NCBI GenBank assembly: GCA_009784615.1
Contig: WRBJ01000002.1
Span: forward strand, 1-64,000
Length of the DNA stretch: 64,000 bases
DNA from: Defluviitaleaceae bacterium
GTDB taxonomy: Bacteria > Bacillota > Clostridia > Lachnospirales > WRAX01
Direction: 5' to 3'
The notes below the pieces were generated by a model, which had not been told where the DNA came from, ran no database searches, and worked only from the letters and a program-made list of their open reading frames with translations. Within the stretch, counting starts at the first letter, position 1, and each line of letters opens with the position of its first letter. The translations under genes were made by a program, and so were the position numbers. This document shows positions 16,196-61,583 of this stretch, one piece after another.

Positions 16196-16513
16196 CTAAA
16201 TGTGGCGACCAATCATCTCTTCGATACTTGTTTCGTTCATACCCTCTTTGCCAAGGCGTTCTAGTTCTTCGCCGTTTTCATAAACAACAGCCGCAGGCAA
16301 GCCCATAACTTTAAGGCTCATTGAAAGACGTTTTGCTTTTGTTGTGTTAAGGATGGCAAAGCGCAATTTGTCGCCGTATTTTTCGGCGCATTGCATAACG
16401 AAGGGCTTTATAGCCTCACAAGGCACACATCCGTCGCCGCTAAACATTACAAAAGATTTGCCGCTAACATCCATAATTTCTGCTTGAAAATTCTCTTTGT
16501 CTAAATATAACAT
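16196..16513 (-). CDS. trxA: Thioredoxin of the glycine reductase system
   Basis: This 105-residue thioredoxin has the active site GCVPC in place of the usual WCGPC. That variant is typical of thioredoxins from glycine reductase operons, where the protein donates electrons to reduce the oxidised GrdA after each turnover. A cis-proline region (VMGLPAAVVYENG) and the final helix are present. GGGAGG lies upstream of the ATG. It follows grdB by 16 bases. No thioredoxin reductase gene is visible in the window, so reducing power must come from a partner encoded elsewhere. Confidence 0.93.
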   Translation of the reverse strand: MLYLDKENFQAEIMDVSGKSFVMFSGDGCVPCEAIKPFVMQCAEKYGDKLRFAILNTTKAKRLSMSLKVMGLPAAVVYENGEELERLGKEGMNETSIEEMIGRHI

Positions 16514-16529: not shown

Positions 16530-17831
16530 CTATTCAAAAATAGTCTGCCCATCAACCTCTGTAGCTAATGCATTAAGAGATTTTTCTACGATTTTTCTAC
16601 GCAAAGCGACTTCATCACTGTGTGGCATTTTTGGGTCGCCTAACGGGTAGGGTATTGCCACCGCAGGAACAATACGGTTTGCGCCTACTGTCATAGAAAT
16701 AGGTGTAATTGTACAAATGTGAACAACGGCAATGCCTGCACGTTCGATTTCTTTCACCATCGTTGCACCGCAACGAGTACATGTGCCTCAGGTAGAGGTT
16801 AGAATAACGGCATTAACGCCGTCTGCAAGCAGTTTTTCAGCAATTTCTTGACCAAAAGCCGCAGAAGATTTTACTGCAGTGCCATTACCTGTAGTGGTGT
16901 AATATTTTGGATGGATAGAGCCGATTTTGCCTTCTTTTTGAAGCTCGAAAAGCACGTCATAAGGCAATACTCTGTAACTGTCAACGTTGGCATAGACTGG
17001 GTCGTATCCGCCGTGCGCTGTTTCGTATACATCTTGTGGGGTGCTACCTATTTGAGCATATTCATATTCGCCATATTTGCTGGCAGATGAGGACTCTATG
17101 CGGTCTGGATTGCCTTTTGGCACAATGCCGCCAGATGTAACGATTGCAAAACGAGCCTTAGAAAGGTCTTTAATAGCCGCCGCAGGTGCAACACGGTCAA
17201 AGGCTGGCATTGGAAATTCTGTAGTAAAAGGTTTGCCTGCCATTTTTTTCAAAAGCATATTCACAGCACGTTCAGAACCACGCTTTTCTTCAAAGAAGTT
17301 AAGGCGTGTGCCGTTTGGCAAATAACCGTCGATAATGCTTGCTTTAACTTCTTCGCCACGGGCTAGTTTTAATGCGAAATTAGCCATTTTTGGTGCGGCA
17401 TCACGCATACCAGAGGCAGAATTTTTAGTAGCGATGATATATACGCTATCTTTAAACATTTCTGCACCAGGGTTTTCTTCATACATACCTGTTACAACTG
17501 GAATTTCAAATTTTTCTTGAACAGCCTTAGCAACAGAGCCACAAGCTACGCCATAACGACCAGCGTTAAAAGCAGGACCAGCGATAAACACATCTGGTTT
17601 AATTTGCTCTACAAAACCAAGAATGGTTGCCGTTGCATCTGCCTGATTTTCTGCAAAAAAGCTGTCGCCGCAGATAATTGTGTGGGTAATTTGCGCCGCA
17701 TCACCAAAAGCCGCCATCAAAGCCTGCCCAGGACCAACGATGCCTTCACGCATTTCGGGCTTGTGGTCGGCCATTTCTTCGCCGCCGATGCCCGCATAAA
17801 ATTGGTTAATATAATGTACAATTTTAATCAT
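16530..17831 (-). CDS. grdB: Glycine reductase protein B selenoprotein subunit GrdB, UGA = selenocysteine
   Basis: GrdB is the substrate-binding selenoprotein of component B; it attacks the glycine Schiff base held on the GrdE-derived pyruvoyl subunit. The frame starts at ATG 17831 (AAGGAGG upstream) and reads through TGA at 16788-16790 to 16530, giving 433 residues. The TGA is codon 348 in the motif TST-U-GTCTRCGAT, the known GrdB site. Without readthrough the gene looks like two ORFs split at 16788. A CGTTGC-GGT-GCAACG hairpin (16761-16775) lies 12 bases after the UGA and is a SECIS candidate. Confidence 0.97.
16761..16775 (-). promoter_or_regulatory. Candidate SECIS hairpin in grdB
   Basis: CGTTGC and GCAACG form a perfect 6-bp stem with a 3-base GGT loop, 12 bases downstream of the selenocysteine UGA. 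Bacterial SECIS elements are short hairpins just after the UGA with a G-containing apical loop, so both position and loop fit. The family allows wide variation and this is an inference. Confidence 0.5.
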
Positions 17832-17858
17832 TTTTCGTGTTTTCCTCCTTATCAAAGA

Positions 17859-40001: not shown

Positions 40002-40985
40002 TTACACTATATTGTGTTTTTTTGCTATGCGTATGTCGTCGCCGAAGAAGTGCAGAGATGTGTAATTGCCGTAAATGCGGGATGCTACACGGTCGGAATA
40101 TGATGTTGCTATGTCGGTGGGTGTTAGATTTGTTGATATTATTGTAGGTTTTTTGGCAAGATGGCGGCTGTTGATAAAGCTAAACAGCTCGCTGTCTGTT
40201 ACCACCGTGGCAAATTCGGAGCCTAGGTCGTCTATTATTAGCAAATCTGCGTCATATGCAAAGCTAATTGGTGCGGCGTTTTTGTCAGATTTGCGGTTAA
40301 AACGCTCGTCCTCTACGTGCCTAAAAAGTTGTGGAGCGGTGGTGTATAGCACGGTACGCCCGTTTTGCAACAATTCGCCAGCAATGCAATTTGTTAAAAA
40401 GGTTTTGCCAAGCCCCGATTGTCCGTAAAACAATAGGTTTTCAAAGTTTTTGCCAAAATCCTCTACAAAATTTAGGGCTATTTCCCAAACTTTCATCATA
40501 TTTTTGCGTGGGCTAATACCAAAATTCTCATCATTTGTATCACTGTAATAATTCATATTAAATGCGTCAAAATTTTCATCGGCGAAGATTTTTCCAAGGT
40601 TCGACATATCAAAATAACGGGTTATTAGGCGTTGTTTTAGGCAATTGCAATGTTCGTCGTTTGTAAAGCCTGTATCTAGGCAGCTTTGGCATTTATATAC
40701 ATCCTTAAAAAAGCTGTCATCATATCCATTGTCATATAGCAATTTTTTACGCTCTGATAATAAAATAGTGCTTTTATCACGGATTTCAGCAATTTTATCG
40801 TCATTATCGTATTTTTTTAAAGCCATTTGTGCTAAAGCAAGTCCCGATTGCGAAAGGGAGTCGTCAATTTCTTTAACACGTGGCAAACGCTCGTATAATA
40901 AGGCTTTGCGTGCCGCCAGCTTGCGTCTTGCCGCCAGCTTATTTTTATCAACTTCCCGCAGAATTTCTTCAAAAATGACATTCAC
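40002..40985 (-). CDS. DnaC/DnaI-type replicative helicase loader
   Basis: This AAA+ ATPase has 327 residues and probably loads the replicative helicase at origins or restart sites. The N-terminal half is helical with a zinc site (CQSC, then CNC near residues 98-115). The C-terminal ATPase has Walker A GQSGLGKT near 191, Walker B LLIIDDLG near 253, sensor ISTNLT near 290 and an Arg-finger region SDRVASRI. It starts 10 bases after the CoaC-DnaD fusion gene, matching the common dnaD-dnaI/dnaC gene order in Clostridia. Confidence 0.9.
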   Translation of the reverse strand: MNVIFEEILREVDKNKLAARRKLAARKALLYERLPRVKEIDDSLSQSGLALAQMALKKYDNDDKIAEIRDKSTILLSERKKLLYDNGYDDSFFKDVYKCQSCLDTGFTNDEHCNCLKQRLITRYFDMSNLGKIFADENFDAFNMNYYSDTNDENFGISPRKNMMKVWEIALNFVEDFGKNFENLLFYGQSGLGKTFLTNCIAGELLQNGRTVLYTTAPQLFRHVEDERFNRKSDKNAAPISFAYDADLLIIDDLGSEFATVVTDSELFSFINSRHLAKKPTIISTNLTPTDIATSYSDRVASRIYGNYTSLHFFGDDIRIAKKHNIV

Positions 40986-40995
40986 TAAAAAACAC

Positions 40996-42276
40996 CTACT
41001 TTCCTAGCTTTCTATCCACATATTCACGCTCTAATTGCGCTAATCTTTCGTGGTCGTATGTTCGACCTTTAAAGTTTTGAAAACGTCTTGGTTGAACTGC
41101 TTTCTCTATCTTACGTTTAAACGGGTTAATCTCTTTGTCTTCAAAATATTGTTTTTCTAAAACCTCAATTTGTTCTGGTGTGGTGATATTTTGTTTTCGC
41201 CATTTGTTTAAAATGCCGTCAGCATAAGGAAAATTTGCCGTTGCTTTATTTATAATTGTTTTTTCGCAAGCAAGCTGAATAATTTGCATAGAATATCCAT
41301 CTTCTTTAATCCAACGCTGCATATATTCTATTTCTTTGTTAATTGGTTCGCGACCGCTGTTGCCTAGCCAGCGCATTATATTGCGGTATTCGTTGTTAAA
41401 CAAACGTATATATTCCTCTGCTTCATCTGCGTCGGCTATGCCACGCTCTGCCCAATTTTGCGCCACACTTTTAATGTAGTTATTGGCTTTCTTGCCATTA
41501 TCAACACAATATTGTAGTAAAAATTCGATAACATCAATTTCTAATCCCATATCAAGATAAATTTCTAAAAACATTTGGCGTTCACGTTCTTGAAGCGGCT
41601 TGCCAAGTATTTCTTCCGCCATTTCAAAAAGTACCCTAACGTTGGGGTTTTGCAAATGTCGCTCGACTTCCTCGATTGTATAAGAAACTTCTTTTATAAT
41701 AGGTTTTACTTCGTCATTTTTAATTATTGCTTCTTTGCTGGAAGATGTAGAAAATTCATTAATTTTAGCAACAATATCCGCCACATCCGCCATAGACCCT
41801 TTACCGACATCGCCGCAAGCTAGACGGGATTCTTTTGGGTCGACAAAATGGTAACCGTATGCTTCTAATTTTTTGATATTTGCTTGCACAATGGGGTTTT
41901 CGTACATTGCTGTATTCATTGCAGGGCAAATGATTACGGGGGATTTGGTTGCCATTACCACTGTTGACAGCATATCGTCTGCAATACCATTTGCAATTTT
42001 GCCTATAATATTTGCGCTTGCGGGTGCAATAACAAAGACATCGGCACGTTGGGCAAGTGATATATGCCGTATGTCTTCATATATAATTGTTTCAAACATT
42101 TCTGTATAAACACGGCGTTTTGTAAGACTTTGTAATAATAAAGGCGTAACAAATTTTGTTGCGGCGTTTGTCATTATAGTATCCACTGTATCACCTTGTT
42201 TTGCTAGCAAATTAGCTAATTCTGCCGCCTTATATGCTGCTACCGAGCCAGTTATACCCAATACAATATTTAACAT
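40996..42276 (-). CDS. Fusion of phosphopantothenoylcysteine decarboxylase (CoaC) and DnaD domains
   Basis: This single 426-codon frame carries two unrelated proteins. Residues 1-175 are a flavin-dependent CoaC: ITGSVAAYK, the catalytic His71 in IRHISLAQ, PAMN (118-121) and the substrate clamp with Cys154 in ACGDVGKG. After a Ser/Lys/Glu linker (176-205), residues about 208-285 and 295-370 are two DnaD/DnaB_2 domains: LGKPLQERERQMF with NNYIKSVAQNW, then GREPINKEIEYMQRW with YADGILNKW. A basic tail follows. No stop or frameshift separates the parts. It overlaps coaB by 7 bases and is followed 10 bases later by the helicase-loader gene. CoaC-type activity looks intact; DnaD normally primes helicase loading. 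Confidence 0.85.
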   Translation of the reverse strand: MLNIVLGITGSVAAYKAAELANLLAKQGDTVDTIMTNAATKFVTPLLLQSLTKRRVYTEMFETIIYEDIRHISLAQRADVFVIAPASANIIGKIANGIADDMLSTVVMATKSPVIICPAMNTAMYENPIVQANIKKLEAYGYHFVDPKESRLACGDVGKGSMADVADIVAKINEFSTSSSKEAIIKNDEVKPIIKEVSYTIEEVERHLQNPNVRVLFEMAEEILGKPLQERERQMFLEIYLDMGLEIDVIEFLLQYCVDNGKKANNYIKSVAQNWAERGIADADEAEEYIRLFNNEYRNIMRWLGNSGREPINKEIEYMQRWIKEDGYSMQIIQLACEKTIINKATANFPYADGILNKWRKQNITTPEQIEVLEKQYFEDKEINPFKRKIEKAVQPRRFQNFKGRTYDHERLAQLEREYVDRKLGK

Positions 42277-42902
42277 AATTTTAATACCTCTTTTACTATT
42301 GCCTGAGCAATATTTTGTTTACCTTCGTATATATTAAAACTTCCATTTTTTGCTACTAAATAACCTAAATGTCCATTAGGCGTAAGATTTGATGTGTCGT
42401 TTGCCAGTACAAAATCGCAATTATTTTTCGTCATCAAAGCCTTTGCCTTGCCTAAAGTTTCTTCTTGTGAAAGTCCTGATGTTAGCTTAAAACCAACAAT
42501 TATAGCATTTGGAGCAAGTGTACGCAATTTCCCAATGGTTTTGGGAATTTTTTCTAAAATAAGTGTAATTTCATCATTATCAGAACTAATTTTACCAACA
42601 TTTTTGCCTTTAACACGATAATCGGAAACAGCCATTGCGTGGATAATGGCGCAAATATCACCTTTAGCAAAAACTTTTGCCAAAGCAATATCCAAATCCG
42701 CCGCAGAACTAATTATAATCTCCTTAACGCCGTTTAAATTCGGACTTACAGCGTTTTTTCCTCTAATATAAATAATTTCGCAATCTTTTGTAAAAAATGC
42801 CTCTGCAATCTCTGCGCCCAATTGACCTGTAGAATTATTAATAATACTGCGAACAGCGTCAATCTTTTCAATCGTGCCGCCTGCCGTAATAACAATTTTC
42901 AT
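42270..42902 (-). CDS. coaB: Phosphopantothenate-cysteine ligase (CoaB)
   Basis: CoaB joins cysteine to 4'-phosphopantothenate in coenzyme A synthesis; the product is the substrate of CoaC. The protein has 210 residues, a stand-alone form as in streptococci. Its start (MKIVITAGGTIEKIDAVRSIINNSTGQLG) has the GGTxExID nucleotide-binding pattern, and HAMAVSDYRV near residue 87, then GFKLTSG near 137 and VLANDTSNL near 165 are conserved. It overlaps the CoaC-DnaD fusion gene by 7 bases, so both halves of the CoA step are made together. Confidence 0.9.
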   Translation of the reverse strand: MKIVITAGGTIEKIDAVRSIINNSTGQLGAEIAEAFFTKDCEIIYIRGKNAVSPNLNGVKEIIISSAADLDIALAKVFAKGDICAIIHAMAVSDYRVKGKNVGKISSDNDEITLILEKIPKTIGKLRTLAPNAIIVGFKLTSGLSQEETLGKAKALMTKNNCDFVLANDTSNLTPNGHLGYLVAKNGSFNIYEGKQNIAQAIVKEVLKLC

Positions 42903-61235: not shown

Positions 61236-61583
61236 TATGTGTGCGACATCTAAGCTATGAAGCGTGAGGTTGCTGGTCTTTGACTGGGTTTTCCGTGGAG
61301 CGATTTGGGCTAATCCCGAGCGATGGTTGCAATGCGTATTTGATTATGTGTTTCATTTAGAGCTGGTTTGTGTAACGAAGCTCGAAACACTCGGGTGCGT
61401 GTTTTGCAAATGTCGGAGGGGTTTGGCGTGTAGCCAAGCCACTTTTTTATGTTAGTGAGCTGATATAGTTTTATGTAAGGCAAAGCCTTAAAAACAAAAT
61501 TATATTAAGCATAAGTCGGCACGATATGGTATGCGGACGTTGCCCGTAAAACCAAGGACATTTTGCAAAAGGAGGTTACAAAC
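61236..61583 (+). promoter_or_regulatory. Long S10-operon leader with an internal terminator
   Basis: This 350-base untranslated region precedes rpsJ. It contains a terminator-type hairpin, GGTTTGGC/GCCAAGCC (61420-61440), followed by ACTTTTTTAT, and a small AAGGC-AAA-GCCTT hairpin (about 61478-61490). No gene is seen in it. Terminator-in-leader layout points to transcription attenuation of the ribosomal operon. Confidence 0.55.
61420..61448 (+). terminator. Attenuator-type terminator before rpsJ
   Basis: GGTTTGGC (61420-61427) pairs with GCCAAGCC (61433-61440) over 8 bp (one G-T) with a 5-base loop, then a T6 run (61443-61448). Confidence 0.7.

Follow-up and report, generated by a model that had tools for sequence, protein, structure and literature searches.

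In Bacillus subtilis, the N-terminal domain of DnaD (DDBH1) makes the tetramer and contacts domain I of DnaA, and both of these functions are essential (PMC10201431); in addition, tetramerization is required for the specific binding of single-stranded DNA by the DnaD tails (PMC10201434). The DDBH2 domains of these proteins are marked by the motif YxxxIxxxW (PMC5204125). The CoaC-type flavoproteins of coenzyme A synthesis are trimers or dodecamers, and in the CoaBC dodecamer, CoaC forms the core and CoaB is located at the edges (PMC7794376).

Here we describe a gene in which these two families are joined in a single open reading frame. It was found in a 64,000-nucleotide stretch of DNA from a Defluviitaleaceae bacterium (positions 1 to 64,000 of contig WRBJ01000002.1, hereafter the window). 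Both parts of the encoded protein belong to known families; the domain architecture, which is confined to one clade, is new to us, and a search of the literature found no description of a CoaC-DnaD fusion. The fusion protein is a variant of the DnaD-type initiation proteins that lacks DDBH1, one of the features by which membership in the canonical family is judged.

Architecture of the fusion protein and its locus

The fusion gene starts with the ATG at position 42276 of the minus strand and terminates with the stop codon at 40996-40998, whereas the plus strand across the same region contains many stops. In the encoded protein, a complete CoaC domain is connected by a short and variable linker to two DnaB_2/DDBH2 domains, which are followed by a basic DnaD tail (Table 1). 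The initial annotation had proposed, with no indication of the strand, an uninterrupted frame at these coordinates with a complete-looking CoaC and two C-terminal DnaD/DnaB_2 domains, CoaC standing in place of the N-terminal winged helix of DnaD, and had placed it between coaB and a helicase loader gene, so that a coaB-coaC unit and a dnaD-loader unit are merged; all these features were borne out by the analysis described below.

Table 1. Features of the fusion gene and the adjoining genes in the window
Feature	Coordinates	Strand	Size or residues	Evidence and remarks
coaC::dnaD fusion gene	40996..42276	-	426 aa	single open frame; full length in G010, G011, G013 and G015
CoaC (PPC decarboxylase) domain	41752..42276	-	residues 1-175	His71, PAMN 118-121, Cys154; PF02441, TIGR02113/TIGR00521
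Linker, variable, probably disordered	41683..41751	-	residues 176-198	length variation, pLDDT
First DnaB_2/DDBH2	41407..41628	-	residues 217-290	PF07261; motif Y267-xxx-V271-xxx-W275
Second DnaB_2/DDBH2	41137..41340	-	residues ~313-380	PF07261/TIGR01446 and model helices; motif Y351-xxx-I355-xxx-W359
Basic DnaD C-terminal tail	40999..41136	-	residues 381-426	disordered, then helix 409-425
coaB	42270..42902	-	210 aa	PF04127, PRK06732; overlaps fusion start by 7 bp
DnaC/DnaI-type helicase loader ATPase	40002..40985	-	327 aa	NF005304/PRK06835, E 3.4e-109

In the CoaC half, the Pfam Flavoprotein profile matches residues 3-173 (E 1.9e-36) and the NCBIfam CoaC and CoaBC models match residues 3-178, with scores below the respective cut-offs (212.9 against 261.4 for coaC_strep, and 211.7, just below 219.7, for coaBC). 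Human PPCDC (1QZU) and AtHAL3a (1E20) can be aligned with the whole of this half, and the catalytic His, the PAMN motif and the flap Cys are all in place; the top Foldseek match is the CoaBC structure 6TGV. A search for the DFP domain (PF04127) within the fusion gave no match, CoaB being encoded by a separate gene. In the DnaD half, DnaB_2 is matched in two stretches (residues 217-290 and about 313-371; E 4.3e-36, with the protein score above the Pfam cut-off), and the NCBIfam DnaD_dom model is likewise matched twice. The last 45 amino acids have a pI of 10.2 and are conserved with the tails of stand-alone DnaD proteins from sister genera.

In the predicted structure of the single chain (mean pLDDT 72.7, pTM 0.42), the N-terminal half forms an alpha/beta domain resembling CoaC. 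The linker is modeled with low confidence at residues 178-197 (pLDDT < 50) and is followed by an all-helical region spanning residues 201-380 and a tail helix. A winged helix hidden between CoaC and the first DDBH2 was considered and ruled out, given that the linker residues form a low-confidence coil in the model.

The loader gene begins with a GTG codon 10 bp past the fusion stop. Both neighbors are preserved in all five genomes in which the fusion was identified (see below), with coaB upstream and the helicase loader directly downstream. Across the order, most relatives have frames of ~400 amino acids at CoaC, as is typical of fused CoaBC; in the fusion clade, the CoaB and CoaC parts are separate, in the order coaB-coaC, with PRK06732 and the streptococcal-type models as their nearest matches.

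Elsewhere in the window, an Rfam SECIS_4 element (16750-16787, minus strand) lies inside a frame (16530-17855, minus strand) that is open if one TGA encodes selenocysteine (motif TSTUGTCTRCG). We take this frame to resemble GrdB of glycine/sarcosine/betaine reductase; it is followed by a thioredoxin-like gene (16196-16513). An S10-Clostridia ribosomal-protein leader RNA is present at 61249-61319 on the plus strand.

Distribution and origin of the fusion

The same architecture was sought in related genomes, as the initial annotation had suggested, and full-length, stop-free fusions were identified in four of these, one from genus g10 (G010) and three from genus g11 (G011, G013 and G015), with 58-63% identity to the window protein. 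Counting that of the window, the fusion thus spans three genera. All four are Defluviitaleaceae metagenome-assembled genomes by record, and their sample codes correspond to the termites Embiratermes neotenicus, Labiotermes labralis and Cornitermes (PMC7024585). His71, PAMN and Cys154 are kept in all five fusions, and so is the first DDBH2 motif (Y267 to W275); the second YxxxIxxxW motif is also present in each, with the last W replaced by Y in G010. The linker ranges from 21 to 30 amino acids, in frame every time, and is poorly conserved and fast-evolving (11-58% identity among the fusions). Wherever dS could be estimated, dN was well below dS in both the CoaC and the DnaD halves, many of the comparisons being saturated. 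The fusion is therefore real and conserved within one termite-gut lineage.

Under strict E-value cut-offs, which diverged fusions could escape, a spanning match appeared in these five of the 392 genomes searched from the order and in no others; equally strict searches of 391 genomes from the class and 399 from the phylum found no fusion besides that of the window (the three genome sets are overlapping samples). A contig pattern scan recovered the four additional fusions together with three unfused relatives from the same family and one distant DnaD relative.

In the sister genus g4 (G004 and G014), coaC and dnaD are separate genes in the order coaB - coaC - dnaD - loader, and the coaC stop overlaps the dnaD start by 4 bp (ATGA). 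The initial annotation had anticipated that separate genes in close relatives would point to an artefact. Such genes do exist, as just described; the conclusion drawn from them does not hold, given that conservation of the fusion across three genera identifies the g4 arrangement as the probable ancestral state. The g4 DnaD starts with about 105-110 residues that have no counterpart in the fused DnaD part and that fold as helix-helix-strand-helix-helix-strand-strand (HHEHHEE), that is, a winged helix. Foldseek matches this extension only to generic winged helices, with the N-terminal domain of B. subtilis DnaD (2V79) at rank 12 (E 0.04), one of many weak matches, so that we apply the name DDBH1 chiefly because of the position of the extension and its association with DDBH2 domains; a sequence search of the PDB with the DDBH1 profile returned nothing useful. 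The profile matches six unfused genomes of the family (G004, G014, G007, G008, G009 and G002), including the distant genera g2, g8 and g9. By sequence and profile search, DDBH1 is absent from all five fusion genomes; the profile also misses the divergent G006. Relocation of DDBH1 to another site in the fusion genomes was rejected on the strength of the same searches.

In the fused proteins, CoaC continues to its natural end and is followed by the linker just ahead of the DnaD motif YSLxD/E. Taken together, the g4 layout and the lack of DDBH1 in the fusion genomes suggest that, most likely, a single in-frame deletion removed the coaC stop along with DDBH1. In phylogenetic analysis, the unfused sisters group together in the DnaD tree (support 94/92) and the fused genomes are united in the loader tree (97/95), with G003 inside this group; the CoaC tree alone leaves the fused group without resolution, and in single-gene trees, support for the fused branch itself is about 60%, which is modest for a single origin.

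Two assemblies are interrupted at this locus. The G003 contigs break within coaB (L057, C146) and within the DnaD tail (C105), and neither coaC nor DDBH1 was found in this assembly; together with its position in the loader tree, this suggests that G003 probably harbors a further, sixth fusion that falls into a gap of the assembly. For G001, which belongs to the genus of the window, contig C4 stops at CoaC residue 83 and C99 starts inside the loader, and the fusion is expected to lie in the gap between the two. In G007 (91% complete; L049, C65), the loader and a dnaD gene that includes DDBH1 are present, whereas coaB and coaC were found nowhere in the assembly; loss of these CoA steps and an assembly gap are both possible.

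Possible role of CoaC in the fused protein

A second CoaC or a second DnaD was detected in none of the five genomes with the fusion. Although these genomes are incomplete, the agreement among all five makes it likely that each half of the fusion is the sole copy. All five genomes encode CoaD, indicating that the CoA pathway is in use, as well as a replicative helicase. DnaA was found in G010, G011 and G015, and in G001; none was detected in the window assembly, which is 86.5% complete, or in G013, in both cases probably because of a gap. These observations imply that both halves of the fusion are likely to be in service.

We infer that the fusion is an essential bifunctional protein, with both enzymatic activity and a role in replication, that arose by one deletion and in which the CoaC trimer or dodecamer has taken over the oligomer-scaffold job of DDBH1; we hold this reading, the best available explanation, with moderate confidence. 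The N-terminal half would serve as the phosphopantothenoylcysteine decarboxylase of the cell, and the C-terminal half (DDBH2-DDBH2-tail) as its only DnaD-type accessory helicase-loading factor, working with the adjoining loader. Starting from an ancestral coaC-(ATGA)-dnaD operon, a single event would have joined CoaC to the interdomain linker of DnaD itself. DnaD occupies the place usually taken by CoaB, C-terminal to CoaC, and a CoaC core could present several DDBH2/tail units to single-stranded DNA and the loader, in the same manner as CoaB is arranged around the core of CoaBC. Because CoaC oligomers are known elsewhere, CoaC could perform the multimerization otherwise provided by DDBH1, and by this analogy, the data are consistent with a DnaD part whose oligomeric state is set by CoaC, as the initial annotation had surmised. 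Two points argue against CoaC as a scaffold. The symmetry of a CoaC trimer or dodecamer differs from that of the DnaD tetramer, and a takeover by CoaC would leave the binding of DnaA domain I, performed by DDBH1 in B. subtilis, unaccounted for, although domain I itself is kept. This domain of DnaA still carries its SW motif in both the fused and the unfused genomes. A change in DnaA domain I matching the loss of DDBH1 was sought and rejected: apart from the retention of the SW motif, the third-contact position varies alike in both groups. We take this alignment position to be equivalent to Phe49 of B. subtilis DnaA.

The genetics would be explained equally well if the deletion simply joined two translationally coupled neighbors, with DDBH1 being dispensable, the two halves acting independently on a flexible leash and CoaC having no part in replication. 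The two genes already adjoin and overlap in the sister genus, the linker is disordered and evolves fast, and the CoaC of the window remains ~73-75% identical to the stand-alone g4 CoaC, with the key sites unchanged. What such a passive joining leaves unexplained is why the loss of DDBH1 was possible at all: the unfused relatives keep this domain and B. subtilis cannot do without it (PMC10201431), it disappeared together with the gain of a known oligomerizer, and the fusion has persisted over at least three genera. On balance, we consider this account rather unlikely.

A bolder version of the scaffold reading, in which CoaC would be the obligatory oligomerization core of a DnaD factor and would make helicase loading at the origin dependent on CoA synthesis or the flavin state, with the recruitment by DnaA rewired for want of the DnaA-binding domain, appears decidedly unlikely. 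Gating of the helicase loading by DnaD through the substrate, CoA or the FMN redox state in CoaC, a link of the kind that the initial annotation had raised, is possible but unsupported, and in our estimate improbable. The two halves are physically joined, CoA thioesters regulate CoaBC (PMC7794376), and central metabolism influences replication in other bacteria (PMC10427196); yet the CoaC domain is little changed and shows no sensory feature beyond those of ordinary CoaC, the described site for allosteric inhibitors of CoaBC sits in CoaB, here a separate protein, and tight allostery is hard to reconcile with a disordered linker. Highly improbable is the separate action of two proteins of ordinary size, produced either by cleavage of the linker, which would be accessible to proteases, or by translation of the DnaD half from one of the in-frame ATG, GTG or TTG codons within and after the linker: none of these codons is conserved in position or in ribosome-binding site across the five fusions, and a separate DnaD consisting of DDBH2 domains would have no known oligomerizer. 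Finally, an assembly chimera or sequencing error, which might be suspected given that all the genomes appear to be metagenome assemblies, has a negligible chance of being the explanation, since the frame is open across the junction in five separate genomes that diverge from the window protein to the extent given above and change the length of the linker in frame.

The fusion physically joins CoA synthesis and replication initiation in one protein. A lineage that discarded DDBH1 for an oligomeric enzyme may separate tetramerization from the DnaA-binding role of this domain, and poses the question whether oligomerization alone is enough and by what route DnaA would recruit the helicase machinery.

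Comparison with described systems

By position, the fusion is the same gene as C. difficile CD3653 (DDBH1-DDBH2-DDBH2), which likewise contains two DDBH2 domains with YxxxIxxxW motifs and is located beside a helicase loader (PMC5204125); the fusion differs in having CoaC at the N-terminus in place of the DDBH1 winged helix. With B. subtilis DnaD, it has in common DDBH2 and the C-terminal tail; the latter protein, in contrast, contains DDBH1, which is responsible for tetramerization and DnaA binding, and one DDBH2, with no enzyme domain. From the side of CoA synthesis, the stand-alone CoaC of genus g4 (TIGR02113 type) shares its catalytic residues with the CoaC of the window, but is unfused and ends in a stop that overlaps the dnaD start. 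In the M. smegmatis CoaBC (6TGV), CoaC is N-terminal and carries a second protein on its C-terminus, as in the fusion; here, however, the C-terminal partner is the DDBH2-DDBH2 part of DnaD, and CoaB is the product of the separate upstream gene.
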